Source: Chloranthus sessilifolius
Taxonomy: Eukaryota > Streptophyta > Magnoliopsida > Chloranthales > Chloranthaceae
DNA: 64,000 nucleotides
Direction: 5' to 3'
Assembly: GCA_021018995.1 (NCBI GenBank)
Contig: CM037590.1
Coordinates: 106,641,097 to 106,705,096 of the forward strand
Part shown: positions 2,720-51,607 of the stretch, one piece after another
How the letters are laid out: each line of letters starts with the position of its first letter
Numbering within the stretch: position 1 is the stretch's first letter
Made by a program: the position numbers and the translations under genes
Notes under the pieces: model-generated
Databases searched by the model: none
Told to the model about the DNA's origin: nothing
What the model saw: only the letters and a program-made list of their open reading frames with translations

Positions 2720-3299
2720 TTAGAACACTAAGTCATTTAGACTTCTAGTCAGGTTAGGAAGCCTAGTTGAATCAGGATTCCTTGATTAATTAAACTTTCA
2801 TTAAAATTAGGAAATTAATTAGATTCCTAATTAGAATAAGATTTCATTAGAAGTAGAATATTACTCAGAGCGGTAATTAAGGATATTAAGTCATTCAGAT
2901 TTCTAGTCGAATTAGCAAACCTAATGGAACTAGGACTCCTTAATTAATTAGACTTCCAATAGGATTAAAATTAGTTAGACCCCCGACAACACTCGGTAAT
3001 TAAAATAATTAAAAGCTATACTAAGAGTGGGAAAGGTAAAATAATTAGAAGAGAATTAGGAAAACTAGATTAACTAAACTTCTGAGTGACCCAGTGTTGC
3101 TGATATCGATCGGCCGATGATTCAGTAAAGAGAACAACCCATACCTCCATCCCGAAAGGCGTGAACAGTGATGTGTTGCAGTGTCGATATATATCTGTAG
3201 CTGGCGATCACAACAAACTAGGTATTTTCCTAGAATTTAACTCTTTATTTTCAGTACTTAGCTACCTTTAAAAATACCACCTTTGCGAGAGTCCACTTG
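2720..3299. other. Intergenic; one imperfect ~158-bp direct repeat
   Basis: No gene is visible. Two related AT-rich blocks start near 2730 and 2888 with 'aagtcattyaga' and continue to 'ccttgattaattaaactt' or 'ccttaattaattagactt'. They look like a decayed tandem repeat or an old repeat fragment. The stretch ends at the CACTA terminus at 3300. Confidence 0.5.
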
Positions 3300-9059: not shown

Positions 9060-11222
9060 TGTCACAACCCAGATTTTTGAGATCTGTGCACGGCACACTC
9101 TTTTTCTTTCTTGCACATAGGTATATGTGTTTCACAAGGAGACCAAAACACCCTAATACTTAAAGTGCGTATATGGGAAACACACTCGTATATTCCAATT
9201 CTGATAAATATAAAAGTGAAGAAGAGAGAGAGGAGTCCTTACGTAAAACTATTCTAACCTAAATAGAGAGGAGGAGATTATAGAGAAAAAGAAGAGAGGA
9301 GCCTGGGAGAACTAGGGTTTGCATAGACTTAGATCGGCAAGGAGGATCAGAGGTAATGACGGGAGGACGAACCAGGGAGGCCGGATAGCCGAGTTGGTTT
9401 ACAAATCTTAAATCGAACCTGTGCGTGATTCATCGTCAGAGGTACGTTAAAAACATGATAGATGCCTAGGAATGTTTTAAATAGTAGGAAGGATGTTGGC
9501 TTATGTTGCCTTATAGAAGATTAAGGTAAAATGAGGGATGGAAGCATGACCTCGATCGGACCAGGGACAAAAGGAATTGTTTCTCGCTCGAGCGGTCTAA
9601 AGAGGCTCGCTCGAGCGAGGATGAACAAGGAAAAGAAAGACTCTGGGCTCGCGCGAGCGGTCCCTTAAACTAAAGGAAGGCTCGCTCGAGCGAGGGTCCA
9701 CATCAAAAATTTGAAAGCTCGATTTAACCACTCGAGCGAGGTCAAGAGACCGCTCGAGCGAGGTCAAGTGACCGCTCGAGCGAGGGCTAATGACCATGCA
9801 GGTCCGTGACCATTCAGATATTGGTTTTCTAATGTGAGGAACTCGGGTGTCCTACACCCCAAATACCTTAGAGCATTCTAAAGTAAAATTCTTTAAATGT
9901 AGGTCGATGCATTATAACCCTCTGAGGACAAGCGTGATTGAGATTCGTCGAGGTAGGGAAGATTCTCGAAACATGTGCATTATTCTGTGAATTCAAATGC
10001 ATAGTATAGTCTTTTTAAATAATTGCATATACCATAAACTCTCATGATAAGTGTGTGTGTGTGTTACAATGAGAAAAATCCTGAGGTCCCCAGGGGACGA
10101 AAGATAATGTGGTTCAATCAAAGAAAGGTGAAATAGAAGTATGGGGCATCCCAGGGATGCGTAAGAAAACAATTAGAGAAACAAAAATAATGTGATAAGG
10201 CCTAATGTAATATATCTAGCACAATCACGGTGAATAACTATATGTAAAGCACATTGATATTTTTATTATTTAAGGTTGATCAGAATACCCCACCGACGCG
10301 TGGCGGGATACCCACGACCGACTCGGGATATCCGTGACTGCACGGCGCCAATCCAGATAGTTGAAACACATCCTGTGGATGTAGATTGAGAATAGACCCC
10401 AGCCTATGAGAAAGGGGCTTGGGCAGTATTCCCAGGGAATACACATAATAACTGTCTAGTTAGACGACGATGGTGGGTATTCCATCGGGGCTCGATGCTA
10501 TATCGCTCGAGGATTACTTAAGTTAAGATTTTAAGTGATTAGGCCAAGTTCACAACAAATTCATAAAGAGGTTAAACAGGAACTATGCTAAGAGGTGATT
10601 GGAACTCATTGAATTATTTTTATCCTTCAAATTGTTATATATAGAATGTTATCTTGGGAATCTATGATGTTGCTTTACTAACATATGTGTGGAAATAATC
10701 TATATGTTCTTTTGTTTTCCCTACGGAGCTAGGATGTAGCTCACCCCCCCTTAGACTATACGTCACAGGTCAAGGACTAGCGGCAGCGAGGACTTTGGGT
10801 GAAGTTAATCCAAGGGCATCGGTGTCCATACCCACAGAAGAGGCAGAACCTCCTCCTGAGGAATTTTTCTAGGAAACCCGCTGCATACCTTGATAGTGAG
10901 TTGAGAGAGTACTGTGTATGGCTTGGTATATCAAGCCTCTTTATTTTGAATGTTTTAAATACTGTCTCTTGGTAAACCATCTAGGAGGAATAAGTATCAT
11001 TAAACTTTCGGGTTGTCCTTATGTCCATGAATTGGCATGGGACAAGGACAGCTTTGCAAGGCCAAATATATTGTTTTTGAGAGGTTGATTTAGAGTAACT
11101 ACATGTGTTTAAATCACAATTATGGCTTGTATATGTAAATGTTTTGTAAAGAACCCAGGGCACGACCTTGAAGGTCATGCTGATGGCACGAATTTCGGGA
11201 TGCCGAAAATCGGGCTGTCACA
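9060..11222 (+). mobile_element. Solo LTR of a Tekay/Del-related retrotransposon
   Basis: The LTR starts TGTCACAACCCAG and ends GGGCTGTCACA, flanked on both sides by the 5-bp duplication ATCTA (9055-9059 and 11223-11227). The plus strand carries the reverse complement of blocks shared with LTRs A and B, such as 'gggctcgatgctatatcg' near 10490 and the ACATCC..GGATGT palindromes at 10144-10441. No internal region remains, so it arose by LTR-LTR recombination. Its variable palindromic array (9588-9790) uses the core CGCTCGAGCG instead of CGATTAATCG. Small ORFs inside are not genes. Confidence 0.9.
9588..9790. repeat. Palindromic array in solo LTR (core CGCTCGAGCGAG)
   Basis: About seven copies of a perfect or near-perfect CTCGCTCGAGCGAG palindrome, in part spaced about 20 bp apart and in part interrupted. 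The array lies 530-730 bp from the LTR start, the position at which LTRs A and B have CGAT-type arrays. Confidence 0.85.
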
Positions 11223-14966: not shown

Positions 14967-14975
14967 AAGTAAAAA
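14967..14975. repeat. Target-site duplication of MULE-1, left copy
   Basis: AAGTAAAAA, identical to the copy at 24163-24171. Confidence 0.93.
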
Positions 14976-15073
14976 GGGAAATTTACCTTACCGACCTTGT
15001 CAGATGTACCTTTTACTGCAGAGACCCTATAGTTTCACCTTTACCCGAATCGACCCGCTGTGCGCCGAACCAT
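14976..15073 (+). repeat. MULE-1 left terminal inverted repeat
   Basis: Starts GGGAAATTTACCTTACC and contains 'cctatagtttcaccttta' and 'cgacccgctg'. It is the inverse of 24065-24162. In MULEs these repeats act as transposase-binding sites and promoters. Confidence 0.93.
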
Positions 15074-15364
15074 CTACTGCCTTTAGAAAATACCGGATTT
15101 ACCCCCAATGTAATAAATAGCCGCCTTCACCAAACCCTACACTGTTTACCTTTTTACTTTTCTACTTTTTCATTCGAAGTCGGTGGAGAGGCGGTCGACA
15201 GTCGCTAGCATTCCGTTCTTCAATCCTCAAGCTACCAGACCTGTAAGTAGCTAGTAAATAATTAATTTTTGTTAATTTTTTTCTTCCTCTTTCGTCGGTG
15301 CACATTTTGAAGTAAATTTTATCGTTATCGATTGTCTATACAATCGATAACGATTTTGCCAACA

Positions 15365-15713
15365 TTTTCTTTTTCGTCCCAAAGGATCTGAAGAGGATCT
15401 AATTCTGGTGGGTCGTTTGACATTGGGAAATATGAATGTAGGGATAATGATGATTCATTTCATTTTGCTGCTGATGGTGGAAAATCATTTGCTGGTGATG
15501 GTTAGGGATAATAACGAAAGCGATTGCATATATATGCAATCGCTATTGATTGTATATGCAATCGCTTTCATTATTATCCCTAACCATCACCAGCAAATGA
15601 TTTTCCACCATCAACAGCAAATGAATCATCTTTATTATCCCAGTGGTGGTGGTGGGGAGGACCCACCACCACCACTAGAATTAAATCCTCTTCAGTTCCT
15701 TTGGGACGAAAAC
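15365..15713. repeat. ~350-bp foldback (two ~165-bp inverted arms)
   Basis: The left arm from 'ttcgtcccaaaggatctgaa' (15370) through 'ggttagggataataacg' (15511) is repeated in inverse as 'cattattatccctaacc' (15569) through 'cagttcctttgggacgaa' (15709), centred near 15542. The centre is a pair of GCGATTGCATATA palindromes. The arms match at most positions with small indels. The right arm is the likely coding copy (LYYPSGGGGED...LNPLQFLWDENDE), so part of the first exon has been duplicated head to head. Transcribed, this would give a long RNA hairpin. Confidence 0.9.
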
Positions 15714-16866
15714 GATGAAGTAATGAAAATTTTGGCGAAGGAAGAAAAGAATAAGAAAAAGAAGAAAAAAGGGAAAAAATTGGACAATTGTATATACTAT
15801 CGATTGTTAATGCGATCGACGTCGATTGATTCAACAATCGATGCCGATTCCCTAAACAATCGTCATCGATTGGGTACACAATCGGGAATGATCGCATTAC
15901 CAATCGGTAACGATTGTTTACACAATCGTCATCGATTGTTGAATCAATCAATGACGATTGTGTACACAATCGATGACGATTGTTTAGGGAATCGGCGAGT
16001 TTTTTTATCTAGCCTGATTATAAACATTCTCTTTCAATTTTATTACAGTTCATATACAGAAGCCAGCAAAATGGTTGTATAACGTGTTCTTGGCAAATGT
16101 TCTCCTGCTGGCATTTCGAAGATCTTCGAAGACGCTAGCCCGCAGCGGAAGGAGATGCTAAGTGCATCAATTTTTGGAGGAATATTCCAAATGCCAAAGG
16201 GTGTTAGTTTTGTTGGAGATGTTGTGGATGCCATGTTAAGTTTTTGGGTTGAGAAGAACCACTTCCGAATCGGGAGGAGAGATGTCTATCTTCGGGAGAT
16301 GGACGTTTCCTTAATTCTGGGCCTTGTAGTTGTTGAACCCCAAGAGCATTCCCCTTCCTTTAAAGCACCTGAAGTGGAAACAATTCGATACAAATATTTT
16401 CGGGGACTAGCGCCCTGGAAAATTGGCTCTTCTTTTTGTTAGTGGATTGAGGCTAGCGCAAAGTGATGAAGACTTCATCAAATTGGCTCTTCTTTTTGTT
16501 CTATGTACATTCCTTTTTCACAGGTCCCATCTTCAATTGTCGGAAGCCCACATTGAACTCGTCGATGACGTGGAAAATTTCAAAAAAACCCCATGGGGTC
16601 TCTACATCTTCAAAGACATGCTAGAGTATATAGAGAAGGGCATGGAAAATAGAAAGACAGCCGACAACGATAAAGCCCTTAAGCCATATAATATTTATGG
16701 CTGTATGTGTGTACTTCAGTGGTGGGCCTATGAGATGCTGCCTGACATCTCACCTCAAAGAACGTCAATGCTAAACCCTTTCCCCCGATTGTTGAAGTGG
16801 GCAGAGAAGCCCCAAACGAGGAATAAAGGCTACACTCTTGCGAAGATGGTCGACAGCAAGGTATGA
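15408..16866 (+). pseudogene. MULE-1 plus-strand gene, 5' part: PMD/DUF1985-like region
   Basis: The N-terminal exon around 15610-15780 encodes an acidic/Lys-rich segment (DENDEVMKILAKEEKNKKKK). After an array-bearing intron and an acceptor near 16048, a second exon runs to a donor at 16860/16861. It reads RVLGKCSPAG, IFGGIFQMPKG, SFWVEKNHFRIGRRDVYL and MDVSLILGL, then SDEDFIKLALLFVLCTFLFH, and ends PRLLKWAEKP. This layout (a Trp-Val/FRIGRR block, then DVSLILGL, then an FVLCTFLF helix and a C-terminal PRLLxW) fits the plant mobile-domain/DUF1985-like N-terminal regions of MULE-encoded ULP1 proteins. The two overlapping frames at 16423-16440 coincide with a direct repeat of 'ttggctcttctttttgtt', so there is a small frame-breaking duplication. 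Its function is unknown; related proteins include MULE-encoded anti-silencing factors. Confidence 0.6.
15795..15990. repeat. 22-bp palindromic array, MULE-1 intron 1
   Basis: Seven to nine head-to-tail units, mostly 22 bp, with consensus CAATCGNNNNCGATTGNNTANA, e.g. CAATCGGTAACGATTG. It lies between the first coding exon and the PMD-like exon. Confidence 0.9.
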
Positions 16867-16937
16867 CGTCATTTTAACTAATTCAAATATGTAAAGGTAA
16901 ACTTGTAACAACATTAAAGAGTAATATGAAGGATCCC

Positions 16938-17105
16938 GATTACCAAATCAATCGATATCGATTGCCTACGTAGTCGGAAACGATTGATTAAGCAATCGCT
17001 ATCAACTACCTACACAATCGGGATTGACTACCTACACAATCGGGACCGATTACCTACACAATCGGGATCGATTACCTACACAATCGGGATCAACTGTAAA
17101 TAGAA
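16938..17105. repeat. 22-bp palindromic array, MULE-1 intron 2
   Basis: Seven consecutive 22-bp units of the type ACAATCGGGATCGATTACCT, in the intron between the PMD-like and coiled-coil exons. The intron-specific variant is the CGGGA core with a 'cctac' linker. Confidence 0.9.
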
Positions 17106-17204
17106 TCAGTTTCCACTCTTTAAGCAGTCTTTAATTTAGAGTGATTTTTCAATTTCTGTAAATTTTTCTATGTTATTTTACAACCTGTCTTTTTTCGTAA
17201 CAGA

Positions 17205-17793
17205 TTAACGCTCCCCTCGAACCCGTTACCTTCTAGTTGGACATACCACTCATAAGGGATTATCAGCAGGTTTTAAAGGCTGTTGGGGGGGAAATTGCGG
17301 GGAAGAGGAAAGAGGTTAAGGAGGTCAAGAAAGCTGTGGAAGTTGATCTTCGGTCCAAGAAAAAAAGAAATATTCCTCTCAAAGAAATTGAAGAGGAAGA
17401 ATTTGAGGATGAAGCAACGTCTGACGAAGGCTCTTCGTTAGATGAGGTCCAAGGCCAATTAGACCGGCCTAAAAGGGTCGCCTCGAAGACAACCAGCAAT
17501 ACACCATCCTCCTCTAATCAAGAGTTGTTGAGGAGGATTGATGCTTTGGAGATGGATAACTTGAAACTCAACCAAAAAGCCAGTAATTTGGAAGAGTTAG
17601 TTAACCAATTGGTGGAAGGGAATAAGCGACTGGTGGAGGAGAATATGCTCCTCCGGACACAATGCAACTCCTTTGAAGAACGGCTCACTTCAAGGGATGT
17701 TCAATTGTAAACGGCGGATCACTTCAACAAGTTGATCCGAAAAGAGCAAGGAAAAATTATAGAACTCCTTCAAACGATAATGGAGGTGACACC
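17205..17793 (+). pseudogene. MULE-1 plus-strand gene, middle exon: basic/acidic region and coiled coil
   Basis: After the acceptor CGTAACAG the frame reads INAPLEPVTF, a TAG stop, then LDIPLIRDYQQVLKAVG, the Lys-rich KRKEVKEVKKAVEVDLRSKK, an acidic patch (EIEEEEFEDEATSDEG) and a heptad-rich coiled coil (NQELLRRIDALEMDNLKL, LEELVNQLVEGNKRLVEE). A second stop (TAA at 17708-17710) is followed in frame by HFNKLIRKEQGKIIELLQ and a donor near 17793. Basic and acidic stretches suggest a nuclear protein. Both stops interrupt otherwise continuous coding sequence, so the gene is decayed, unless the second lies in a spliced-out part. Confidence 0.55.
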
Positions 17794-17844
17794 CAAGGTA
17801 TGATTGGCAGTGTAGTCTGCTTTAATTTGATTTTTTATTTATTC

Positions 17845-18080
17845 GATTGTTTACCGATCGTATTTACAATCGATAATGATTGCATATACAATCGATACCG
17901 ATCGTATGTACAATCGGTAACCATTGCATTTACAATCAATATCGATTGCATTTACAATCGATACCAATTGCATTTACAATTGATATCAATCGCATTCACA
18001 ATCGATACCGATAGTATGTGCAATCGGTACTGCTTGTAAATGCAATCGTTAGGCGATCGGTACCGAATGTAAATACGATT
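17845..18080. repeat. 22-bp palindromic array, MULE-1 intron 3
   Basis: Nine to ten 22-bp units such as ACAATCGATACCGATCGTAT and ACAATCAATATCGATTGCAT. The linker variant is 'gcattt' or 'gtatgt'. Confidence 0.9.
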
Positions 18081-18147
18081 TATATTATTTTTAGAAGTCA
18101 TTCTGTTCTCTGTTTTCTTATTTATCAAATTTATGTCTTTCGATGTT

Positions 18148-18530
18148 CAGGATGGTGCTGTTTCAAAGTTGCTATCTGAAGTGTCTCTCGCTGCCGATAT
18201 TGGACCAGAACCTGCTGGTCCAGTCGACCAGGGATCAGCAGATGTGGCACCAGCTCCTCCCGCCCAAGAGGATTTGGCAGCAGCTGATAACCAATCCCAC
18301 GATGATGATGATAAGGGTGGTCCGACAGTTGATGAGCAATCCGAGCAGCCAGTAGATGCTCGCCTGAGGCCTAGGATTAAAGTTAAACAAGTTGCCTCGA
18401 AGTCTAGGACATTAAAGAAGCAGGCGATAAAAAAACTGCCAACAGTGACGATGCCCCCTCCTATGGAGGAGCTGACAGATGAGCAGAGGTTCATGAATGC
18501 CATCTAGACAGCTCCCGAAAAGGATGCCGA
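18148..18530 (+). pseudogene. MULE-1 plus-strand gene, Pro/Asp-rich linker exon
   Basis: After the acceptor GATGTTCAG the frame encodes DGAVSKLLSEVSLAADIGPE, a Pro/Ala/Asp-rich low-complexity segment, then KVKQVASKSRTLKKQAIKKL (basic, nuclear-signal-like) and PPPMEELTDEQRFMNAI. One TAG stop at 18505-18507 precedes APEKDAE and a donor. Low-complexity linkers between the N-terminal domain and the protease are usual in MULE ULP1 proteins. Identification rests on position between the coiled-coil exon and the protease exons. Confidence 0.55.
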
Positions 18531-18817
18531 GTAAGTTACATATATTACGAATTTGTCCTTTTTTCTAGTGATAGTAACAACTTAGTTACTTCATTTTGAA
18601 TTAAAACTTGGCCGTTATGTTTCATACAGCATCTACGTAAGCTCCGTGGGTGATTATACACTCCGGATGCATACGTTCAAATGTCTGGAAGGCACGACAT
18701 ACTTAGACAATCTTGTAAGTAACGAAATCTCTCATATTAAATTTAAAAAGTTATTTTCTTTTCAAGTTTTCTAAAAGTAACGACTGATTTGGAAAGGGAA
18801 CGATGGCCCAGATAGAC

Positions 18818-18958
18818 AAAATCGATTGTTTACACAATCGATGACGATTGTGTACACAGTCGATGCCGCCTCTCTACGCAATCGCTAACGATTGTCTGAG
18901 CAGTCGATACCGATTAGCTAGACAATCATTACCGATTGTCTGAACAGTCGATAACGAC
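18818..18958. repeat. 22-bp palindromic array, MULE-1 ULP1 intron
   Basis: About six units, CAATCGATGACGATTGTGTA and relatives, in the intron between exons 18630-18714 and 18991-19275. Confidence 0.88.
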
Positions 18959-19524
18959 TCCGCATTTACTGAAATTTGTTATCTTTTCAGATCATGGGAG
19001 TCTATCTAAGACTTTTGGAAGTCATGGATGACGCTGCTCATCCTGAACTTCGTGATAAGTTCTTTCTGATGAGCCCCACCGGTTTGTCATATATCGGCAT
19101 GAATTATAACGATTTCAGATTCTTTGTTGAAACTGAAAAACTCAACCAAAAACCGATGGCCACGCAAATTGAACGGTGGGCTGCTCTAAAGGAAGAAACC
19201 AACCCAGGTAAGAAGATGCTCCAAAACTTCTTCTTCAATAGGTGGAGGAATCTGTGGGCTCACCAATGCAACACGGTACATTACGCTCTCTGCAAACTTT
19301 GTTCATAATTTCCACCATAGTGTCCTCTAATATATTATATTATTCATTTCAGATATTTGTCCCAGTCCATAGCCGCTCCTTTGCATTGGGCCCTTGCTAT
19401 CGTTAAGGTTTTAGAACGATCGGTAATGATCGTTGATCTAATTTTGGATAGGCCCTCGAAGGACAAGTATCCCCTACAAATAAACATACTGGTAAGAATC
19501 GTCCACACCTTCAAAATTGTCTAA

Positions 19525-19730
19525 ACAATCGCTAACAATTGATTATACAATCAGTAACGATTGATTATACAATCGCTAGCGATTGCCAAAACGATTGACA
19601 ACGATTGATTATACGATCGACAACGATTGATTATACAATCGACAACGATTGATTATACAATCGCTAACGATAGATTACATGATCGACAACGATTGATTAT
19701 ACAATCACTGTCGATCATTTGGGCAATTGA
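19525..19730. repeat. 22-bp palindromic array, MULE-1 last intron
   Basis: Eight to nine units of 22 bp with consensus CAATCGACAACGATTGATTA, in the intron separating the exon with the catalytic His and Asp from the Cys exon. Confidence 0.9.
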
Positions 19731-20120
19731 TCACATATATTTCTTGATATTTTTTCTGCTTAAGTAGCTTATCTTATCAAACATTATCTGACATTAAACT
19801 TTTCTAAACAGACCAAATATCTTCCCGCTATTTTACATGTACACGGAGACTCCATTGCATTGGAAGCTGCGACTTATCCGTGGTCAAGTTCTGATTGCAA
19901 GGTCAAATCCGTGCCCCGACAGAGCAATGGTTGGGACTGTGGGGTATTTGTTTTGAAGTACATAGAGTACTTCATCTTGGGAAAGAAATTCGACTTCAGC
20001 CAAGGCAATATGAGTCAGATCAGGGCAAAAATTGGACAAGCACTCGCTAAATTTACTGCCGATGGAGAAGTCGAGAGAGCTATGGATGAAGAACCTACTA
20101 CTGATGCAGTAGCATCCTAG

Positions 20121-20537
20121 TTTATTTCTAACGTTAAAATTATATTAACTTGAAAGATTATTTGTAAATGAAAATTTTATATTTTAAGTGTAAAACAATC
20201 ATGTTTTTTTTAATTTATAATATAAAGTATGTAAAAATTTTATATGGGCTACTTAACATTAGGTGGAGGAAGCAATCGATGTCGATTGATTATGCTATCG
20301 ACATTGATTGCAGAAGCAATCGACTTCGATTGCAGAAGCAATCGATATTGACTGTCTACGTTTGAAAATTTTTAAGAGTACACAAATCTTGCCTTAAATT
20401 CAAAAATCAGGTTGGATACAACCCCAATGGAGTTACAATTCAAACCCAATTCTTACCAGGGCTATCTATCAACACTTCTTTACATTTTTAGGGGAATTTA
20501 CATCTAGTGGGAAATTTAGCTGACTTCTTGTACTGTA
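20121..20537. other. Space between convergent MULE-1 genes, with a short palindromic cluster
   Basis: About 400 bp with no coding signal lie between the two stop codons. At 20270-20352 there are four units of the CAATCGATGTCGATTG type. The rest is AT-rich and probably carries both polyadenylation regions. Confidence 0.6.
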
Positions 20538-23284
20538 TCAACCCATAGGACCAATTGCCGTGCAACTCCGGCGATTGTGACCATACTCTTTGCACCTGCC
20601 ACACTGTAGGGCCCTAACTTCACCCTTAGACATTATCCTTCTCTTTCTCGGACGTCCGGCTTGCTTTCGACAATTGTAGGGTGGTTTTACTTTCATATTT
20701 TTTGGCAGTTGCTCAGCTTGGAATGCCCATTGGCTTTTATCGAGGGTGGGAAGCCATTGTTCGTCATATGTTTGTCTAAAACAAGCAGTGAAAAACTACT
20801 TCTCACAGAAGTTATGGTAATCGTAACTTCTCCGATTGATAGCTGCCATGGCATGAGAGCAAGGCAAGCCATGAATAAGCCAACGACGGCAAGTACAGGT
20901 CTTGTGTTCTAAGTCGACGTGATGAGTGAAATTTCCAGAATTGACTTGAAATTGATCGCACCCGTATGGTTGAGCTCTCTTCCTACCGGCCCATTACAGT
21001 ACCTTCTTCATATGCTCATCTGCTTTTGGACGGAATATGGTGGTCAATTTCTTAGATATCTCTCTGCGCTTTTGAAAATGGTCGGCGACTTTCTCTCTAG
21101 TAGTTCTGATTAGGTTGATAATTGGTCTCTCTCGAGCTATCTTTAGTACGCTGTTTAAGCTTTCGGCATTATTCGTAGTCAAAGAATCATATTGCCTTCC
21201 TTTCATATGTGCGCGTGCCCAATGCTTTGGGTCTATTTTCAAAATATACTCTATGGCCCAAGGATCAGCAGGATCTTCCTTTATTTTGTTAATAAAATAA
21301 TCAAATTTCTCTATTGAATATGCAGGCACGGCGCACCACCATAAACCCTTCACATTGTTCTTTGGATACTTGTGTTGCAAATTTTGTGTCATATGTCACA
21401 TGCAATAGTTGCGGTGTGCGTTAGGAAAGATATGTTTGATCGCCTTAATTAAACCCTTCGACCTATCCGTGATAAAAATGAAATCTTCGGTAAATTCACC
21501 GATCACGAATGCACCTACTTGTTCAAGAAACCACATCCATGTATCCTCTTCTTCTAATTCGACGATGGCAAATGCTAATGGTAATATATGGCCATTACCG
21601 TCTTGCCCCGAGGCAATAAGTAGGATCCCTTCGTAACGTCCCCGTAGGTGTGTGCCATCTACAAGCAGTGTGTGACGAAGTGTACTACAGTAGCTACGAA
21701 TGCAGGGGCCGAAACTCTAAAATTTTTTTTGAAATTTACCGTCAAGCGTTAGTTGAAAGGATGTTCGTACATTAGGATCTACCCTCTCCATCTCCTTCAC
21801 GTAGGCTGGTAGATCCACAAATTGTCATTCCCAACTGCCTCTAATATCATTAAGGGCAAGTTCTTTCCCCCTCCAAGCCTTAGCATATGAGATTTATACA
21901 TTATAAGCTTTTGCAATATCAAATATTATCGGCGCCGGAGTATAGTCGAATCCTTCCATAAGTTTCTCCCGTATATAATTAGCTACGAACGAGATTGTTG
22001 CATTACGGTGACCGTGCGGTCCGATCTTAGCGGCCCCGCATCTGTGAGTACTATTGAACGTCTTGATTTGGAAAGTGTCGAGCCCATTTAATTTAGACGC
22101 ATGTATTCGCCATGAACAACCGGTTTCAGATACGCGGTCACACTCGATAATTAGCGGTTTTCAAAGGCCGAATTTGAAAGTTTTTCTCCACCGCGTGCTC
22201 TTTCAATGCTCTTTGAAATGTTTGTTTATCTCTGAAGATCTCTCCAACTTCAAACGTTCAATTCCGATATTCTGTTTCCACCTCTTGATCGGAAGACTCG
22301 TCCGATATCTCTGACACTTCGTAAGCTCCATCTACTAATGGATTATCAATGCCCCTCGTAAAACATTTCGGATCCTCTTTTATAAACCCATCCGGTTCAT
22401 CATCATAATCTTCGACGTTCTCTTCACTAGCAGTGTTTTAAGGTGGTTCACTAGATCCTTCTTCACCGGCGTTCATGTGGTTGACTAGGCCCTTTTACGG
22501 GCAGGTCATGACATGGCTGACTAAGCCCTTCACCGAACTGGTTTTGACATGGTTGACTAGTCCCTTCACCGAAGGGGTGATTATATGTATGGAAATAGGG
22601 TTGAGCTCCTTCGTTAATCCCCATCGATGGCATAGTAGAACATAATTCGTGAGTCATCCAATTTGTGAATCCACCGGAAAAGATATGATGAAAATCGTCT
22701 TCATCCCCCACTCTTAGAGACGTGTAGTCTAACTCTTGACTACAATGTGCCCCATGCATAATTTGCAGTGGGTCATCATATGATTCAATTGGGGCATGGT
22801 TTAGATCAATAGTCGTCTTCATGGTGGATATGTTTTCCGCAAAATTGTCGTCATCACCTAACTGAATAGTATCATACGTAAGTCCTTCCTCAAACTTATA
22901 TGGCTGGAAGGAATGGTTACTCACAAAATCAGTCTCACCTAGAGGTACATGTTCAGCTTTGAATCGGAAGGAGGATGGTTCTTTAATGATGAATACCTTT
23001 ATAATGTCCGACCCAAATTTATAAAACGAAAATAGGGTGGCCAAATCATCCGAATCCAAAACGTTGGCAAGCACAGGGGTGTTCACTATTTTCATAGAGA
23101 ACTTTATGGAAATTGTTTCATCTGCTCTCGCAAAACTGACAACAGAAATTCGCCTTCTGAACCGTTCATAAAATATACCCGTCGATATTGTAATAACCCT
23201 CCGGCGGCCACCTTGATACAAACCATCATCGTTTATAATATAGCCATCAAAGTGACAGAGAAGAGGAATTTCCACACCAGACAT
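20538..23284 (-). pseudogene. mudrA: mudrA-like transposase of MULE-1 (decayed)
   Basis: The minus-strand start is the ATG at 23284 (MSGVEIPLLCHF), chosen because it aligns with MDVPLLCHFD of MULE-2; the longer upstream frame runs into the palindromic array. The N-terminal mudrA domain (RRRVITISTG, DSDDLATLFSFYKF) covers about the first 90 residues. A spacer follows, then the MuDR DNA-binding domain near 22250-21950 (VGEIFRDKQTFQRALKEHAV). The DDE core has D in LLVDGTHLRGRY (~21670), D in FITDRSKG (~21470) and E in TNNAESLN (~21230). The SWIM zinc finger is CTCRRWLIHGLPCSH (~20850), and the C-terminal zinc knuckle is CGRCKEYGHNRRSC (~20570), stopping at 20538. Breaks include TGA at 21398-21396 where relatives have Arg (YCM-stop-HM), stops in the DNA-binding domain and a stop after MKKVL at about 20994. 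Confidence 0.88.
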
Positions 23285-23344
23285 CGCCTCTTTAAGAAGG
23301 AGAAGAAAGGAGTCATAAGACGGATGAATATGACAAATTGGTAG

Positions 23345-23725
23345 CAAAACAACTGATATCCAATCGGTACCGATTGAGTACTCAATTGGTGACGATTGAA
23401 TACTCAATCGGTAGCGATTGGTTAAGCAATCGGTAGCGATTGAATACTCAATCGAGAACTATTGAGTACTCAATCGAGAACTATTGAGTACTCAATCGTT
23501 AGCGATTGCATATTCAATCGCTACCGATTGCTTAACCAATCGCTAACGATTGAGTATCCAATCGGCACCGATTTCAAATAAATGCAGGAGTGGATATCCA
23601 ATCAATATCGATTGTTTATGAAGTCGTTGACGATTGGTTAATCAATTGGTAGCGATTGAATATGCAATCGCTAATGATTGGATAATCAATCGAGGTATAT
23701 CTTACAATCGACCAGCTCCTGCATT
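23345..23725. repeat. 22-bp palindromic array upstream of mudrA in MULE-1
   Basis: Ten regular 22-bp units (23358-23575), e.g. TCAATCGGTAGCGATTGAAT and TCAATCGCTACCGATTGCTT, then a shorter second group to 23725. It occupies the interval between the right inverted repeat and the mudrA start codon, i.e. the promoter/leader region. Confidence 0.92.
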
Positions 23726-24064
23726 TATTTACAATCGATATCTATTCACCTTTTCCAAAAATTAATTCGATATGGTTTACAGTGGATCTCAACATACCTC
23801 GCGTCGGAATGGGAAACTGCGCAGGATCTTCAGTTTAAACTACAGGATCTTCAGTTTACAGTGGATCTCAACTCCGAATGGCAAAATGCCGGAGCTTCTT
23901 CTCTCAAACCTCTGTTTTCTTCTTCTAGTTAGCAGATCTGAGGCAGAAGACGTCGTCACCTTCACCACCTCTTTAGCGCAAATTAAAATGAGGAGAAAGA
24001 GAACATATTTGGGTTAAAGAAAGTCAGAGAAGGGGGTAATATGGATTTTTTATTCTCCTTATGG
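23726..24064. other. MULE-1 leader region, short direct repeats
   Basis: 'ttacagtggatctcaac' occurs at about 23774 and 23857, and 'aggatcttcagttta' twice between them. This is likely 5' leader of mudrA on the minus strand. No ORF is convincing. Confidence 0.45.
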
Positions 24065-24162
24065 TCGGCTTGGCGCGCAGCGGGTCGATTCGGGTAAAGG
24101 TGAAACTATAGGGTCTCTGCAGTAAAAGGTACATCTGACATGGTCGGTCAGGTAAATTTCCC
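24065..24162 (-). repeat. MULE-1 right terminal inverted repeat
   Basis: Inverse of 14976-15073 with a handful of mismatches. It is presumably the promoter side of mudrA. Confidence 0.93.
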
Positions 24163-24171
24163 AAGTAAAAA
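24163..24171. repeat. Target-site duplication of MULE-1, right copy
   Basis: AAGTAAAAA, identical to the copy at 14967-14975. Confidence 0.93.
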
Positions 24172-25539: not shown

Positions 25540-26404
25540 TATGACAGCTCGGATTTTGGTACCCCGAAACCCGTGCCATAAGCATGATCCTCCAGACCGT
25601 GCCCCAAAACTATATACGGAGCATTGGTATAACAAGCAAAAACCAAACAAGTAAGGTATATAAACTGAAAGAAAAATATGCATTAATAATATATTATTCT
25701 CTAATTGAAAGAGCTCAAAAGCAGTTCTCATTCCATACCGAACACAAAAACAGGCCCAAACCATCGGTGATAAAACTAGGTCACCCCAGATGGTTCGCCA
25801 AAAAAAATATTCGAAGTAGAAATACATTGATTATCCAAAATAGAGGCTTGACATACCAAGCCGTACCAATATGCTCACAAAAACTCTCTCTCAAAGTACT
25901 CAGCAGAGTCTCCTACAAGAAGTCCTCGGGAGGAGGTTCCAACTCATCCCCAGGCACGTAATCCGTATCACCCGGATCTACGTCTCCCGAAGCCTCGGCC
26001 GCTGCTACCAATGGACCTGCGACATATAGTCTAAAGGGGTGAGCTACATCCTAGCTCAATAGGGAACAACACAATGAACATATAAGTCAAAATCTCACAT
26101 ATATTCCATGATATTCAAAGCATGATATGTCTATGCATTTCTCAGAAAACAGTTTAAAAGATGGTAATTTGCATTCAAGTTTACTGATAATTTGCATGTC
26201 TTACTTTACTGTTGATTTATCATGAATGACACTGAACAGACCTAAAGCAAAACTTAAATATTCAACTTAAGTAATCCCCATGCAATATAGCATCGAGCCC
26301 GGATGAAATACCCACCATCGTCGCCTAAATAGACAGTTGTTATATGTATTCCCTAGGAATACTATCCAAGCCCCTTTCTCAATGGGCGGCGGGATTAAAT
26401 CTCA

Positions 26405-26770
26405 TCTCAACATCTTTAGGATGTGCTTACTGTGTATGGATAGACCTCCGCACTGGTGTACGGATTGGCCGCCGTACCGGTCACGGATATCCTGTCGAGT
26501 CAGTCGTGGGTATCCCGCCACGTCGGTGGGGTAGTCTAATCAAACTTCAAATAACAAAAATAACATGTGCCTTACATATAGTTGTTCACCGTGTAAAGTG
26601 TTATCTTATATCAGTTAGGCCTCAACAGTAGTTATTCAATCATATTTACATCCCTGGGATGTCTAATTTACTCGCATCACACTGATGTCCTTATTACTTT
26701 CTCATCCCCTGGGGATGTCTCATTCTCATTTGATTACTTGGTCTCAGTTACTCGCATCACACAGATGCCT
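26405..26770. repeat. Conserved ACATCCCTGGGATGT-type palindromes in LTR B
   Basis: ACATCCCTGGGATGT (26649), CATCCCCTGGGGATG (26704), ACATCTTTAGGATGT (26409) and CATCACACTGATG/GCATCACACAGATGC variants are spread over 360 bp. Similar palindromes occur in LTR A (1198-1501) and the solo LTR (10144-10441) at the same relative position. Confidence 0.7.
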
Positions 26771-27058
26771 TTATCACACTCATGGTGTCACACACGCACC
26801 CTTTTCACAAAGATTTATACAGTTAAAACATTTTTAGTTTGAGTTCTATATCACTACATACATGCTCTTGCAAGCAAAGTACATGTTCAAGGGGTAAAGT
26901 CCAAGCCTCAAGGTCCCACGCGGCTCCTTGTGCTTGCTTTCACACGTACCACTTATGGTATATCACAACATATGCAACACATCACCAAAGATGTAATAAA
27001 GAAAGTTCTAGACCCTCCATGAACCTCAAGGTCCAACTAAGAAGTTAAGTGAAACTGC

Positions 27059-27425
27059 CAAAATCGATTAATCGATTCCCAAAATCGATTAATCGAGATT
27101 CAAAATCGATTAATCGATCCTAAATCGATTAATCGAAATCCCTAACATAGTAAAGTCGATTCTCAAATCGAGTGGTCGAAAGTCTGAAATCGATTAGTCG
27201 ATCCCAAATCGATTAATCGAAATCCAAAATCGATTAATCGATTTCCCCCGGTCTTGTTTCTCCAGCCACTGGAGGTACCCAGTCGATTAGTCGATTTCTA
27301 AATCGATTAATCGACCTTCAACATCGATTAATCGATTTCCAAATCGATTAATCAAAATCGGGCATCCTTGACTTTTCAACTTCTAGACCAAATCGATTAA
27401 TCGAACCTCAATTTCAATTATTCGA
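27059..27425. repeat. Palindromic array in LTR B (core ATCGATTAATCGAT)
   Basis: About 18 copies of AAATCGATTAATCGATTYCC and close variants, mostly 20-21 bp apart, broken by a short unique piece ('cttgtttctccagccactgg'). The same array is in the other LTR at 37383-37550 and 55300-55500. Confidence 0.92.
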
Positions 27426-28020
27426 TTTGGCCAGATTCAGCCCCCTTTCGGGCTGTTCTTCCAAATATTTTTCTTTTCTATTTTCTTTATTTTCTAAGTC
27501 TTTACTCTACCATTTTAACCATACTTGACTGAATTTAACCATCAAACATCAATGCATTTAATTCTAATAAAACTCACCTCAATAATCTCTTTAAAGAATT
27601 GATTTGTTGGGTTTGATGGCTAGGGTTCCAGCTTTTCGCTTCAACGATCTTTCACACATCGAATCCGATAATCAATGCTTGACCCCCTCTTGATTTGCGT
27701 TAACTCTTGGGTCAATAACTCCTCTTTACTCCATCTCTCTCTCTCTTCTTAACTCTCTCTTCAACAACCCAAACAAAAGGATTCTAGGGTTATTAAACCC
27801 TTATATCCTCTCTCTGATTTCAATGTTAAGCACATACACTAGAGATAGGTGTATGTGGCTCAAAGCTAATACCATTCATTACACTTAGGTCACATATGCA
27901 CCACGTCAGTTTATCATTCCATGAGTTCATTGTTTGACCATCACTTGGTCAAACCTACGACCAGTCGGGCACGAATCCCGAGGTCACTATTTAACTATCA
28001 AATTTTCGAGATATTATATT

Positions 28021-28326
28021 CTCCCCACCTTGGAAATTTTTGTCATCAAAAATAACCCAAAGGTGCGTCGCTTGGGTACCCCACACATTGGGGTGTCGCG
28101 TGCCCGATCATGATAAGTTACTATGTATCATTCAATGCAAAAAAAAAACTGTCACGTATTGCAAGGGAATATAAAAAAATTTGATGTATATTTCACTATG
28201 TAATTTGCAAAGTTTACAATTTGCTCTTCCCTACCCCCAAAATTTCATTTGTATTCCCCCCAATTACAAGACAAACTTCCAAAACAAATCATCATAATGA
28301 CGCTCCAAAAAGTGATCCAGTCCCGC
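28021..28326. other. Element B 3' internal end: purine tract and untranslated DNA
   Basis: It contains the minus-strand purine tract at 28021-28033 next to the 3' LTR. The rest is untranslated sequence downstream of the extra ORF. Confidence 0.6.
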
Positions 28327-29843
28327 TCATGCGGTCCCCTCTCCTGGCTGATCTGGTGCTAAAGCAGGCTGCTCTGTCTGGGCTGGCTGCTCTGGTGGTG
28401 GCTGGCTCGTCACAGCAGGCTGCTTTGGCTGCTGGGGCACCGAGCCAAATGCATCAGCGGTAGAGGTACTCGCATGAAAAGCGGCACCTGTATGAAAAGC
28501 TGTCTGGCCCGCAGTCCACGTCTCCTCCTGCGAGAGGCGCTGCTGGTAATCCAACAGATAGATGTACCGTAGGGTGTGGTACATCAAGAAGTTCATCCAC
28601 CGATTCATCCTCTCGTTGTTGGCTTCCATCCGAGCCAACACGTCCTCTACAGTAGGCGCCGAGCGAGCCGTTCCCCAGCGGTATGAAGAAGTGGGTGTGG
28701 TGGTCTCTAACTACGACGGTGGCGTAGGCGATGCGGTGGAATGGGAGGGTGCCCCCTTGGCTGGTGGATAAATGGGGTGTGCTCCCCCCACAGGTGGGTC
28801 CTGATGTGGTGGTGGGGGTGGTGGTGGTGCTACTGGTGCTGGTGCTAGTGCTGGGCCCTGAGTTGGTAGGGTCCGCTTTAGCAACCGATAACTATGACCC
28901 CATGAAGCGATCGAGTAATGCTTCAGGTGGTCTGTAGCTTGCTCCTCATGAGGCGGATAGCGTATCCTGGAGCGTCTGAGTAGCATTCTAGCATGCTCGA
29001 AATGAGGCGAGCATATGGCATCTTCTCTTTGGGCCTCAAATTTCCCTTCATCAACTTCCCCTTTATATAGACCATCCCCTCCAAGATGATCTTGGTAGCG
29101 TCAAACCAACGACCACAGAAGGCCGCGTACAAGGCATGTTGAACTAACTCCACCCTCTCGGTGTCGTGACGCATCAGGTAGAGTTTGCACTTGATTATGG
29201 AATCAAGCATCCACATATAATGGGGTAGATCGACCCTCTGAATGGACGATCCGGACCCCTTCTTCCCATTGGTCATCCGAGTCATAATCTCTTCAAATCT
29301 CACCTCTTTCGTAAATGGTGGGAAGAGAGTGGTCTCGGGCACGAAGTCCAAATAACATTCTAGGGCTTCGTGGATGTGTCAACTGGTGAAGGTATAGTCA
29401 CGACCATCAATCATGGTCGTAACAATGTCGTCGGTAGGACCCTCCGCCAAGCCTTGGTAAAACAGGCCGACCAGCCTAGGGTAGTAAGACCCGTGGAGTG
29501 GCTTTAAGAGATTGCCGAGGCCCGCCTCCACCAAGTAATTTCGAGCCCATTGGGTCTCACCCTCAACGTCGGGGTTGGTAAACAATTCCACATCGAAGAT
29601 AAATTCATCTTCGAAGGTCTTAGCGGCCCACCATTCATTTGGTTAGGGGAAGTTTACGGGTGGTGGTGGAATTGGTGAAGACTCGCTCGAAGACGCGCTC
29701 GTCGAACCAGATGTGGTATCCGATGCCGACGGGGATGGGGTCCTCACAGGTGATGGGGTAGGTGGTGGCGGTGCGGCGTTCTTACGCCGGACTGGGAGCT
29801 TGGATGTCGCCTTCTTCGAAGACAACTGGATTCTAGGCGGCAT
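28327..29843 (-). pseudogene. Additional ORF of element B (plant 'putative transposon protein' type)
   Basis: Downstream of pol and in the same sense lies a second coding region starting at ATG 29843. It opens with a basic, Pro/Ser-rich stretch (PPRIQLSSKKATSKLPVRRK). The conserved part follows: NEWWAAKTFEDEFIFDVEL, YYPRLVGLFYQGL, RVDLPHYMWMLDSIIKCKL, RPKEKMPYARLISSMLE. The Pro-rich tail (APAPVAPPPPPPP) ends in a helical segment, MEANNERMNRWMNFLMYH. The order (aromatic/charged start, YPxLVxxFY, a long helical part, MPYxRLI) resembles the plant 'putative plant transposon protein' domain seen in extra ORFs of retrotransposons. Function is unknown. It is broken by stops at about 29645, 29377 and 28709 and a frame change near 28950. 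It has its own upstream TATA box. Confidence 0.65.
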
Positions 29844-30072
29844 TTTGGTGAAAATATAACAAAACTAGGTTTTAATGGCTTGAAACAAAAAGAAACTCGA
29901 AATCTAGGGTTTTACCTTAGGTATTCGATCCGAATGCAATTGATTTCGATCCGAAATCGATCCCAAACCGTAAAAACCCTAGGTCGCCAAGTCGCTCGAG
30001 AAGAAAATTGAAAAAGGCGCGCAAGAGAAAAAAAAATCAAACTGATTTCGAATGGGGAGAAATCCCTATCAA

Positions 30073-30087: not shown

Positions 30088-30575
30088 CCCGATTCGATTA
30101 ATTGATTTCTAAAATCGGTTAATCGATAATCAAAACCTAGTTCAGCCACGCAAAATCGATCAATCGATTTCCAAAATTGATTAATCGAAACTCAAAATCG
30201 ATTAATCGAATTCATTTCGATTAATCGAAATCGTGGTCACTTAAAACTCTAACTTTTCCAGCTCACTGGCGCATGCCAGTCGATTAATCGAAATCCTAAA
30301 ATCAATTAATAGAATTTCACTTCGATTAATTGAAATCGTAAAGTTCTTCAAATTTTCCTAAATTTCTCAAGTCACTCGATTAATCGAATTTCCAATATCG
30401 ATTAATCGAAATCTAAAATTGATTAATCGAAACCCGAATCGATTAATCAAAATTTCATTTTATTAATTTCCTGTATCTCCATTCAATATCCACTCACTGG
30501 CGTATGTCAGTCGACTAATTGACCAAAATCGATTAATCGAATTCCCAAATCGATTAATCGATTTTGATCAGATTT
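30088..30575. repeat. Internal palindromic array of element B (CGATTAATCG)
   Basis: More than 20 copies of ATCGATTAATCGAAAT-like units occur in groups, interrupted by 'ctcactggcgcatgccagtcg'-type pieces. It shares the core of the array in the element's own LTR, although it lies between pol and the extra ORF. Confidence 0.9.
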
Positions 30576-35878: not shown

Positions 35879-37553
35879 TGTGATAGCCCGGATTTTGGCA
35901 CCCCGAAACCAGTGCCATCAGCACGATCCTCCAGACCGTGCCCCAAAACTATATACGAAACATTAGTATAACAAGGCAAAACCAAACAAGTAAGGTATAT
36001 AAACTGAAAGAAAAACATGCATTAATAATATATTATTCTCTAATTGAAAGAGCTCAAAAGCAGTTCTCATTCCATACCAATGTATGGACATAAGAACAGG
36101 CCCAAACCATCGGTGATAAAACCAGGTCACCCCAGATGGTTTGCCAAAAAGAATATTCGAAGTAGAATTATATTGATTATCCAAAATAAAGGCTTGACAT
36201 ACAAAGCCGTACCAATATGCTCACAAAAACTCTCTCTCAAAGTACTCAGCGGAGTCTCCTAAAAGAAGTCGTCGGGAGGAGGCTCCAACTTGTCCCCAGG
36301 CACGTAATCCATATCACCCGGATCTATGTCTCCCGAAGCCTCGACCGTTTCTAACAATGGACCTGCAACGTATAGTTTAAAGGGGTGAGCTACATCCTAG
36401 CTCAATAGGGAACAACACAATAAACATATAAGTCAAAATCTCACATATATTTCATGATATTCAAAGCATGATATGTCTATGCATTTGCTAGAAAATAATT
36501 TAAAAGATGGTAATTTGCATTCAAGTTTACTGGTAATTTGCATGTCTTACGTTACTTTTGATTTATCATGAATGACACTGAACAGGCCTAAAACAAATCT
36601 TAAATGTTCAACTTAAGTAATCCTTGAGCAATATAGCATCCAACCCTGATGGAATACCCACCATCGTCGCCTAAATAGACAGTTGTTATATGTATTCCCT
36701 GGGAATATTACCCAAGCCCCTTTCCCAATAGGCGGCGGGGTTAAATCTCATCTCAACATCCCTGGGATGTGCTTACTGTGTACGGATAGACCTCCGCACT
36801 AGTGTACGGATTGGCCGCCGTACCGGTCACAGATATCTTGCCGAGTCAGTCGTGATATCCCGCCATGTCGGTGGAGTATTCTAATCAAACTTCAAATAAC
36901 AAAAATAACATGTGCCTCACATATAGTTGTTCACCATGTAAAGTTCTATCTTATATTAGTTAGGCCTCAACAGTAGTTATTCAATCATATTTACATCCCT
37001 GGGATGTCTAATTTACTCGCATCACACTGATGCCTTTATTACTTTCTCATCCCCTGGGAATGTCTCATTCTCATTTGATTACTTGGTCTCAGTTACTCGT
37101 ATCACACAGATGCCTTTATCACATTCTTGGTGTCACACACGCACCCTTTTCACAAAGATTTACATAGTTAAAACATTTTCAGTTTGAGTTCTATATCACT
37201 ACATACATGCTCTTGCAATCAAAGTACATGTTCAAGGTGTTCCCTACCTCAGGTCTCCGAAGGTCCAAGCCTCAAGGTCCCATGCGGCTCCTTGTGCTTG
37301 CTTTCACACGTACCACCTATGGTACCTCACAACAAATGCAACACATCACTAAAGATGTAATAAAGAAGGTCCTAGACCCTCCAAAATCGATTAATCGAGA
37401 TCTAAAATCGATTAATCGATCCCAAATCGATTAATTGAAATCCCTAACATAGTAAAGTCGATTCTTAAATCGAGTGGTCGAAAGTTCGAAATCGATTACT
37501 TGATCCCAAATCGATTAATAAAAATCCAAAATCGATTAATCGATTTCCCAACT
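35879..37553 (-). repeat. 5' LTR of element B, inner part
   Basis: Starts TGTGATAGCCCGG on the plus strand and aligns with 25540-27240 of the other LTR, including the conserved palindromes and the first half of the ATCGATTAATCGAT array. It is interrupted at the duplication CAACT (37549-37553) by element C. Confidence 0.92.
37549..37553. repeat. Target-site duplication of element C, left
   Basis: CAACT, matching 55295-55299. Confidence 0.9.
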
Positions 37554-37890
37554 TGTAGACACCCAAATTCGGCCCAAGGCATGATCATTCTTTACTCCGA
37601 GAGAGATGTACTCCTGTGCTTCCGATGGCGCCCCTGAACCCTTAGGAACCTACCTAGACCTTTAGGAATCACCCTGAACCCTTTAGAACCATCCCCTAAC
37701 CCTTAGAGATCACCCCTGAACCCTAGATTCCCTTCCCAGACCTAACTTAAACCCTTCTGAGTAGTTGATGGGAGAGGAGCTATAAAACTTTATACAGACC
37801 ACCATCATGGATGAGCCATATACCTTTGGAAAGAGGACTTCTCCAGCTTTCCAACAAGCCAAAGATCACCCAATTTGGAGCTACAGTTCA
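37554..37890 (+). repeat. Truncated extra LTR of element C
   Basis: The first 337 bp of the LTR. It then switches at a shared GTTCA to sequence identical to the 3' internal end. See the three-LTR finding. Confidence 0.9.
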
Positions 37891-38197
37891 GATTAATACT
37901 CAGCATCACAAATCTATAATTTCCCTCAGGAAGTTGATGATATCCCAGCTAGCGGGCTTACACTTTTTGTGATCATCGCAATTATGCCCAGTAATGTCGC
38001 AATGCGCTTGGGGACTGTTAGGATTGAGGTATAGACGATATCCTGAAATGAGAGGGCTTACGTACACTCACCATCACCATGGATGTTTGAGAATTGAGTT
38101 GAACCAGGCGGACCCATCAAACTTGCCTTGGACCTCTTCGGATGTCTCTTGTCTTTGGCATTCGATCATTAGTGATCGAATACCAAAGAGGGGCATC
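37891..38197 (+). repeat. Duplicated 3' internal end of element C
   Basis: Nearly identical to 53401-53707, including the purine tract CAAAGAGGGGCATC just before the next LTR. It shows that another copy of the internal region once lay here. Confidence 0.93.
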
Positions 38198-39758: not shown

Positions 39759-39760
39759 GA

Positions 39761-39778
39761 TGGTGACTCCGCTGGGGA
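39761..39778 (+). other. Primer-binding site of element C
   Basis: TGGTGACTCCGCTGGGGA lies 2 bases after the LTR. It is close to the TGGCGACTCCGCTGGGGA site I recall from Tat/Ogre-group elements, usually attributed to tRNA-Arg. Confidence 0.75.
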
Positions 39779-44868: not shown

Positions 44869-45080
44869 GTGCCGTTAAGCTATGAACAGATGGACATGAA
44901 TGCTGGTTGCAACCAAGAGGAGGCTGTTGAATTTGTTACCAAGTTAGGCCAGGTTTCTGCACAGCCAGAGGCATCAGGGGCCGTCAGAGGAGAAGAGAAG
45001 AAGAAAGAACAGGCTGCAAGGAATCCCTTTAAAAAAATGGCCAGAGAACACAACTCAAGAGAACACCCGCGCATATTAGT

Positions 45081-46442: not shown

Positions 46443-46765
46443 AAAGTGAGGTTAGCCTCTGGACCACCCTACCCTGTATATATAGAGATCCACCTCGCCA
46501 GGGGCTGCCCTCCAAAAAAATGCAAAAAGCCATAAAAATAGAAAAAATACCAATTCTAAAAATATTATCCTTTAAAATTCCCAATAAAATTAAAATTGAT
46601 GTCGTGATACCCGTCCCACGTGAAGCCGACCCCTTTCCTATAGAAATATAAGAAGAGGTAGGAGTCACGGGTCTGGACGAGGAAGGTCAAACCGATGAGC
46701 TCCCCAATGAGCTCCTCAAACAATTTGCCAAATTTGAGCATGGCCCTACCCCGATCGCCGAAGAG

Positions 46766-48180: not shown

Positions 48181-48279
48181 CGCTGATCATCTTGCTGAGA
48201 ACCCACTGCCGGACTATGAGCCTCTAAGGATCGAATTCCCCGATGAGGACATTCTGTTCACGACTGACGAGGATACTGA

Positions 48280-51570: not shown

Positions 51571-51572
51571 AC

Positions 51573-51606: not shown

Positions 51607-51607
<1 letters not shown>

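Follow-up and report, generated by a model that had tools for sequence, protein, structure and literature searches.

Phased palindromic arrays in a Mutator-like element of Chloranthus sessilifolius: probable binding sites of a VANC-type, Ulp1-bearing anti-silencing system

A 64,000-nucleotide stretch of the genome of Chloranthus sessilifolius (contig CM037590.1, positions 106,641,097 to 106,705,096; hereafter the window, to whose first letter positions refer unless a locus is named) hosts a Mutator-like element (MULE) at 14976-24162 that carries arrays of a phased 22-bp palindromic unit in its non-coding parts. We consider it probable (about 0.72) that these arrays are clusters of predicted binding sites for a sequence-specific anti-silencing protein encoded by the MULE itself, that is, an Ulp1-bearing system of the VANC type. 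A VANC-like reading had been put forward in the original prediction, made from the letters of the window, and it is supported by the gene found in the element, by the placement of the arrays, by their recurrence in further copies and by the in-step change of motif and protein between two MULE families; binding and the anti-silencing effect themselves we infer.

The whole window was scanned for the palindrome CAATCGNNNNCGATTG, allowing up to 2 mismatches and taking the expectation from 100 shuffles. The scan returned 56 matches against 2.05 expected (the largest number in any shuffle being 6), and 55 of them lie inside the element. A tandem-repeat search gave period 22 in each of the seven clusters that the original prediction had named, and these clusters, together with a foldback, were all found where it had placed them (Table 1). 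Its description of the units as 22 bp long and arranged head to tail also held, as 40 of the 46 gaps shorter than 70 bp between successive sites of the element are exactly 22 bp. The arrays had been said to avoid the conserved domains, and indeed all 55 sites fall outside the modelled coding exons; the non-coding part so defined makes up 41.9% of the element length, a figure that counts the whole of 14976-16059, including an unmodelled first exon, as non-coding. The arrays occupy introns 1, 2, 3, 5 and 7 of a VANC-like gene, the intergenic space and the leader of the transposase gene mudrA. None was found in the two short introns of the VANC-like gene, and the CAATCGNNNNCGATTG scan, at the same threshold, detected no site in either of the 91-bp terminal inverted repeats (TIRs).

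Alignment gives the unit as CAATCG-nTAn-CGATTG-nnTAnn; its two dyads, 11 bp apart, both hold a conserved TA, and half-site starts alternate at 10 and 12 bp. The core given in the original prediction was incomplete, the full site being CGATTG-nnTAnn-CAATCG. For 46 units chosen solely by their phase, however well they matched, identity between clusters was 0.847 for the core, 0.639 for the TA and 0.275 for the linker, chance being 0.263. Within clusters, linker identity rose to 0.468; linkers were also more alike within than between clusters in a permutation test (p 0.0005, the floor of 2000 permutations), which bears out the earlier claim that each intron has its own linker variant. Wear at CpG, taken as a possible record of methylation, amounted to transitions in 22 of 220 CpG letters against 8 of 110 non-CpG C/G letters, with no clear difference.

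Membership of the element among the MULEs is indicated by a MULE domain (E 7.1e-19), a SWIM domain (E 5.8e-11) and a 9-bp target site duplication (TSD), within the 8-11 bp of such elements; both of its termini begin with GGGAAATTTACC. The mudrA gene has six in-frame stops in its main frame (21896, 21827, 21719, 21398, 20996 and 20798) and a seventh at the start of the frame (22163). The VANC-like gene on the opposite strand is also decayed, with stops and frame changes; the copy is not intact. This second gene was modelled by eye, with splice signals and open frames as guides, and in the model a presumed first exon is followed by seven coding exons. In exon 2, the piece 16411-16866 matches PMD (E 4.3e-6) and DUF1985 (E 8.5e-6), both under the Pfam cut-off, and the first part (16083-16442) matched no Pfam family. 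The probable coiled coil of exon 3 gave weak matches to coiled-coil families and a heptad score reached by 16 of 1000 shuffles. The Ulp1 (C48) protease domain scores 38.1 bits on one exon (cut-off 20.7) and 62.2 bits on the joined exons, and its catalytic residues (His, Asp, Gln and Cys) could be placed in an alignment to SENP2. An 848-residue joined query found no protein homologue at E<=0.001 among 7992 scored candidates, and viral contigs gave two single matches, near chance. A single-sequence structure prediction of an exon-2 piece reached a predicted local distance difference test score (pLDDT) of 49.8 and was not used.

The same letters recur throughout the 2.17-Gb genome, counted over its 32 contigs. 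The exact core occurs 5850 times (613 for the reversed control pattern) and the TA-centred dyad CGATTGNNTANNCAATCG (CGATTG-nnTAnn-CAATCG) 4772 times (3 for the reversed control), whereas the AT-centred version of the same dyad occurs 118 times, a TA:AT ratio of 40:1. To sample the family without regard to the motif, the left 100 bp of the element served as query; from 40 scored matches of 1518 candidates, 30 loci were cut, one of which is the window copy, and the other 29 were counted. These close relatives (at least 94% identical to the query) hold 277 sites in the first 1.5 kb inside the element and 4 in the 1.5-kb flank (43,737 bp and 43,500 bp compared, respectively). At 28 of the 29 loci at least two sites stand exactly 22 bp apart; the exception is L041, whose 5 sites include no pair at that distance. 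Of 206 short gaps, 188 measure exactly 22 bp. The arrays are thus neither absent from related copies nor an ordinary satellite, the two sequence-level outcomes that would have spoken against the earlier proposal. Two of the loci, L028 and L042, are separated by 9.6 kb and appear to be opposite ends of a single copy. Eight regions of contig C1, picked via motif matches and hence biased, all hold family members or deeper relatives with period-22 arrays, with mudrA identities of about 49-87% in the longer matches. The stretch G000:C1:5452886-5456290 (in L009) has several 22-bp arrays and no tblastn match to mudrA or to the VANC-like protein, with TIR-like matches at 1886 and 3070 of L009 and a short inverted one at 3038-3072; it likely represents non-autonomous copies that kept their arrays.

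Comparison of the window copy with three close copies gave identities of 0.90-0.92 for exons, 0.81-0.89 for the remaining non-coding sequence, 0.82-0.86 for the core letters, 0.73-0.80 for the TA letters and 0.60-0.65 for the linkers, with 15-38% of the unit columns gapped. Between copies the core letters stand out only relative to their own, much faster-changing linkers, and misaligned units will account for some of the low linker values. About 82 of the 150 scored matches of one exon piece of the first family, and about 142 of 150 for the second family described below, were free of stops (counted by eye). The ratio of mean nonsynonymous to mean synonymous divergence (dN/dS) was 0.50 for part of exon 2 (25 copies, 16 of them without stop), 0.27 for another part of exon 2 (5 copies) and 0.19 for an exon of the second family (6 copies, all stop-free), against 0.86 for a control in which a non-coding stretch was read as codons (27 copies). 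These values fit a protein that would have been kept working during the spread of both families.

The second MULE, which is cut by the end of the window (Table 1), is flanked by the TSD ATATATGTA, and its TIRs share 93.8% identity over 97 bp. A period of 20 is clearest in the array on the 5' side of its VANC-like gene and in that of the mudrA leader, with two less regular arrays sitting in between; half-sites of the leader array, which lies in the window, read CGATAA or CGATAT. The VANC-like protein of this family is a relative of the first one (48% and 36% identity over two exon pieces), with a PMD match at E 3e-5, below the cut-off. The mudrA proteins of the two families are 47% and 62% identical in two aligned blocks and 37.5% identical at the N-terminus. 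All five further second-family loci, chosen by protein, have 20-bp arrays. In these, CGATAA and TTATCG are turned towards each other with 6 bp in between (TA at the centre in 38 of 38 cases) and stand back to back with 2 bp in between; a CGATTG pair is absent from all five. In the 29 first-family loci the corresponding distances for CGATTG and CAATCG are 6 bp (TA at the centre in 108 of 125 cases) and 4 bp, and these loci hold no CGATAA-6-TTATCG and a single TTATCG-2-CGATAA. In the whole genome, CGATAANNTANNTTATCG (CGATAA-nnTAnn-TTATCG) occurs 5312 times and its reversed control 8 times. Motif and VANC-like protein therefore differ together between related families, a statement that covers two families only.

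In the mechanism that we propose, the DUF1985/PMD-Ulp1 protein would bind each TA-centred dyad as a dimer, for which its probable coiled coil would be suited, and neighbouring dimers, lying on one face of the helix, would cooperate. An array loaded in this way may block or reverse DNA methylation of both MULE genes, in cis as well as, for decayed and non-autonomous copies, in trans. As units expand locally, the linkers would change rapidly while the recognised letters are held.

VANC systems reportedly diversified across eudicots with DUF1985, DUF287 and Ulp1, and motif density and helical periodicity are said to set VANC specificity, both according to the 2022 EMBO J work of Sasaki et al.; the two-turn spacing is therefore not claimed here as new. 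In Arabidopsis, VANC21 binds arrays of YAGTATTAY that lie upstream of VANA21 and within introns of VANB21 and VANC21; the motif of VANC6, AGTTGTCC/AC, is a different one (PMC5735166). VANDAL21 and the first MULE have in common a short tandem motif placed in accessory-gene introns and ahead of the transposase gene, a change of motif between families and a fast turnover of arrays. VANC proteins contain DUF1985, for which exon 2 of the VANC-like gene gives a candidate match under the Pfam cut-off. Binding and demethylation are proven for VANDAL21, whereas here we infer them from sequence. The same paper reports the VANC6 motif in AT9TSD1, which is unrelated to VANDAL, a parallel to the foldback-like repeats discussed below. 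TIRs are reported from some Brassicaceae members of the VANDAL clade (PMC6446971); arrays go unmentioned in the accessible part of that source, and 'tandem repeat' is absent from its main text. According to a review (PMC13317346), Vandals carrying KIU recognise non-coding motifs of other KIU-carrying Vandals, and the capture of Ulp1 by VANC genes (KIU) is dated to the separation of monocots and eudicots. The first MULE resembles the KI-MULEs of that review in having an Ulp1-bearing VANC-like gene in reverse orientation to mudrA, but KI-MULE is described there as non-TIR. In grapevine and melon, TIR-MULEs with an ULP domain in either orientation are known (PMC2528002); the accessible text mentions neither arrays nor a recognition function for them, and the word 'tandem' is missing from its main text. 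The literature listings brought up no work on ULP-bearing MULEs with palindromic arrays, which does not prove that none exists. Because of its TIRs (91 bp, 97% identical; 97 bp and 93.8% in the second MULE), the first MULE is filed neither as a VANDAL nor as a KI-MULE, and it is best called an element that appears to work like a VANC system and by structure is neither of the two. What is new relative to the literature compared is the presence of TA-centred palindrome arrays in MULEs that bear TIRs, and the coexistence of two such codes within a single genome.

Several observations weigh against an anti-silencing system encoded by the MULE. The DUF1985 and PMD matches remain under the Pfam cut-offs, in a second copy likewise, and an Ulp1 exon was looked for in the second MULE and none was found. 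The window copy and all five C1 copies checked for stops are broken, with exon 4 left out of the check on the C1 copies. The copies are related by descent, so that their counts are not independent events, and between them the core letters are no better kept than other non-coding sequence. One locus (L031) has 2 sites inside and 3 outside, the latter being 3 of all 4 flank sites. In addition, all three foldback-like places fetched from the motif list (L060, L061 and L062) carry the motif of the first family, partly at 22 bp, with no blastn match to either MULE TIR and no tblastn protein match, so not all copies of the motif in the genome belong to the MULE. Three related families of long terminal repeats (LTRs) in the window have palindromic arrays of their own, without a VANC-like match, and together with the foldback-like repeats they imply that part of the pattern may have another cause. 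Finally, VANDALs are marked by degenerate TIRs (PMC10398659), unlike the long, nearly identical TIRs of the MULE studied here, and the main text on VANDAL21 (PMC5735166) does not describe the VANC21 and VANC6 motifs as palindromic, the strings 'palindrom', 'inverted', 'dimer' and 'Ulp1' all being missing from it.

One such cause, conceivable though unlikely, is a host factor (a transcription factor or chromatin protein) that binds the sites and was recruited by several element types for promoters or insulators, the VANC-like gene being uninvolved. The LTR elements of the window, with their different palindromic arrays of about 20-22 bp, point in this direction, as do the lack of a VANC-like match in the window outside the first MULE (LTR families B and C being known from their LTRs alone) and the motif in the foldback-like repeats. 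However, between the two MULE families the motif shifts in step with the VANC-like protein, the majority of the sites are intronic and not at gene starts, and the LTR lattice is loose (among 30 gaps below 70 bp in the Ty3/gypsy-type element, 12 are 21 bp, 5 are 20 bp and 4 are 19 bp) when set against the strict lattice of the MULE. As for the element's own proteins, the original prediction had named either the PMD/ULP1 product or mudrA as binder. The former is likelier because the TIRs, where a transposase must act, are free of sites and most arrays lie in the introns of the other gene; the preference is qualified by mudrA, too, differing between the two families. Recognition by mudrA, for transposition or for transcriptional control, would agree with the largest array being in the mudrA leader and with the array in the leader of the second mudrA, but for the reasons given we regard it as very improbable.

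Neutral slippage of one old minisatellite that spread through the element would explain the local homogenisation of linkers within each intron, and it is in keeping with core letters that change, between copies, about as fast as other non-coding sequence. Yet neutral drift would wear all letters evenly, and between clusters the cores are well kept while the linkers are near random; the 40:1 excess of TA over AT centres is a second objection, and we give this explanation hardly any weight. Least credible of all is a role of the palindromes as hairpins in RNA or cruciforms in DNA (in splicing, in recombination or as a source of small RNA). Perfect dyads do exist, as does a long inverted repeat in intron 1, but over 55 units half-site changes were one-sided in 55 cells and two-sided in 1; such half-sites do not co-vary and are a poor fit to selection for pairing. 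Outside the half-sites, the TA of the dyad is held and most other spacer letters vary, with the exception of one of five spacer pairs (positions 18-21), which pairs more than shuffled (P 0.003).

If the DUF1985/PMD-Ulp1 protein is the binder, a wider and distinctly tentative idea, which the sequences make possible but on balance doubtful, is that anti-silencing in this plant may run on a palindrome code. DUF1985/PMD dimers would read CGATxx-nnTAnn-xxATCG dyads two helical turns apart, and new codes would arise as the outer dinucleotide switches between TG and AA and the inner spacer between 4 and 2 bp, which gives periods of 22 and 20 bp, so that MULE families would be separately addressed. 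Other elements might have borrowed a MULE code, as in the foldback-like repeats, or evolved LTR arrays of their own, one of them beside an accessory gene, and addressing may thus extend beyond MULEs. Between the two large families, both with many open copies of an exon, the words differ in two letters of each half-site and the spacing by two bases, a contrast that lends itself to a simple swap experiment. The VANC-type reading, if borne out, would extend such systems to more TIR-bearing MULEs, and it would provide ready-made sequence tags for targeted demethylation in plants.

Table 1. Features of the window discussed in the text.
Feature	Position	Strand	Remarks
Left TSD of first MULE, AAGTAAAAA, 9 bp	14967-14975	no strand	identical to 24163-24171
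Right TSD of first MULE, AAGTAAAAA, 9 bp	24163-24171	no strand	identical to left copy
Left TIR, 91 bp	14976-15066	+	88/91 identical to right TIR
Right TIR, 91 bp	24072-24162	-	88/91 (97%) match with left TIR
Foldback with CGATTG-TCTATA-CAATCG dyad	15323-15356	no strand	half-sites matched in site scan
Long imperfect inverted repeat	15368-15715	no strand	intron 1; 78% over 364 columns
Array, 22 bp	15795-15995	no strand	intron 1 of VANC-like gene
Exon 2, VANC-like gene	16083-16860	+	DUF1985/PMD-like second part; frame change near 16411-16500
Array, 22 bp	16938-17105	no strand	intron 2 of VANC-like gene
Exon 3, VANC-like gene	17204-17798	+	charged stretch and probable coiled coil
Array, 22 bp	17845-18080	no strand	intron 3 of VANC-like gene
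Array, 22 bp	18818-18960	no strand	intron 5 of VANC-like gene
Exons 7-8 with intron 7, Ulp1 (C48) protease	19353-20120	+	frame change in exon 7
Array, 22 bp	19520-19730	no strand	intron 7 of VANC-like gene
Array, 22 bp	20265-20360	no strand	between 3' ends of the two genes
mudrA transposase, decayed	20541-23286	-	MULE and SWIM domains
Array, 22 bp, largest	23345-23750	no strand	mudrA leader
Second MULE	61202-64000	+	cut by window end; continues to L022:4948, about 7.7 kb whole
20-bp palindrome array (CGATAWCTTAAGWTATCG)	61538-61668	no strand	leader of second mudrA
Second mudrA, N-terminal reading frame	61916-63427	+	DBD_Tnp_Mut; ATG 61916
TCGATTAATCGA arrays, mostly 19-21 bp	27058-27404, 30094-30561, 37380-37543, 55352-55495	-	both LTRs and inside of Ty3/gypsy-type element (strand: that of the element)
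LTR palindromes AAATCGNTYRANCGATTT and CTCGCTCGAGCGAG	1865-2115 and 9583-9784		related LTRs, 65-73% DNA identity in main shared blocks
Accessory open reading frame	28910-29845	-	between pol and 3' LTR of Ty3/gypsy-type element, beside one array

The inverted repeat of intron 1, which the original prediction had overlooked, has an array-type site near its apex (15537) and is a possible source of hairpin RNA. The first-family motif in the foldback-like, non-coding repeats is exemplified by CGATTGTGTAGACAATCG, and the repeats at L060 and L062 also hold palindromes rich in CGATAC.

As to the LTR arrays, the Ty3/gypsy-type element of the window lies on the minus strand, with LTRs at 25542-28022 and at 35881-37549 plus 55296-56096. 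Its palindrome TCGATTAATCGA, with up to 1 mismatch, was found 37 times in the window against 0.15 expected, 36 times within this element. In the three LTR families the arrays sit 425-512 bp past a shared LTR block (464 bp in the Ty3/gypsy-type element, 512 and 425 bp, respectively, in the two related LTRs of Table 1); their words differ, two being alike in their AATCG ends. These arrays could be a parallel invention, sites for a host factor, or unrelated. The accessory open reading frame gave a weak match to Transposase_32 (PF20167, E 1.9e-4, below the cut-off). A second LTR-type element (37554-55294) is nested in an LTR of the Ty3/gypsy-type element, and palindromic CAGGCGTATATATTATATACGCCTG units (54093-54210) form part of the sequence repeated at its ends.

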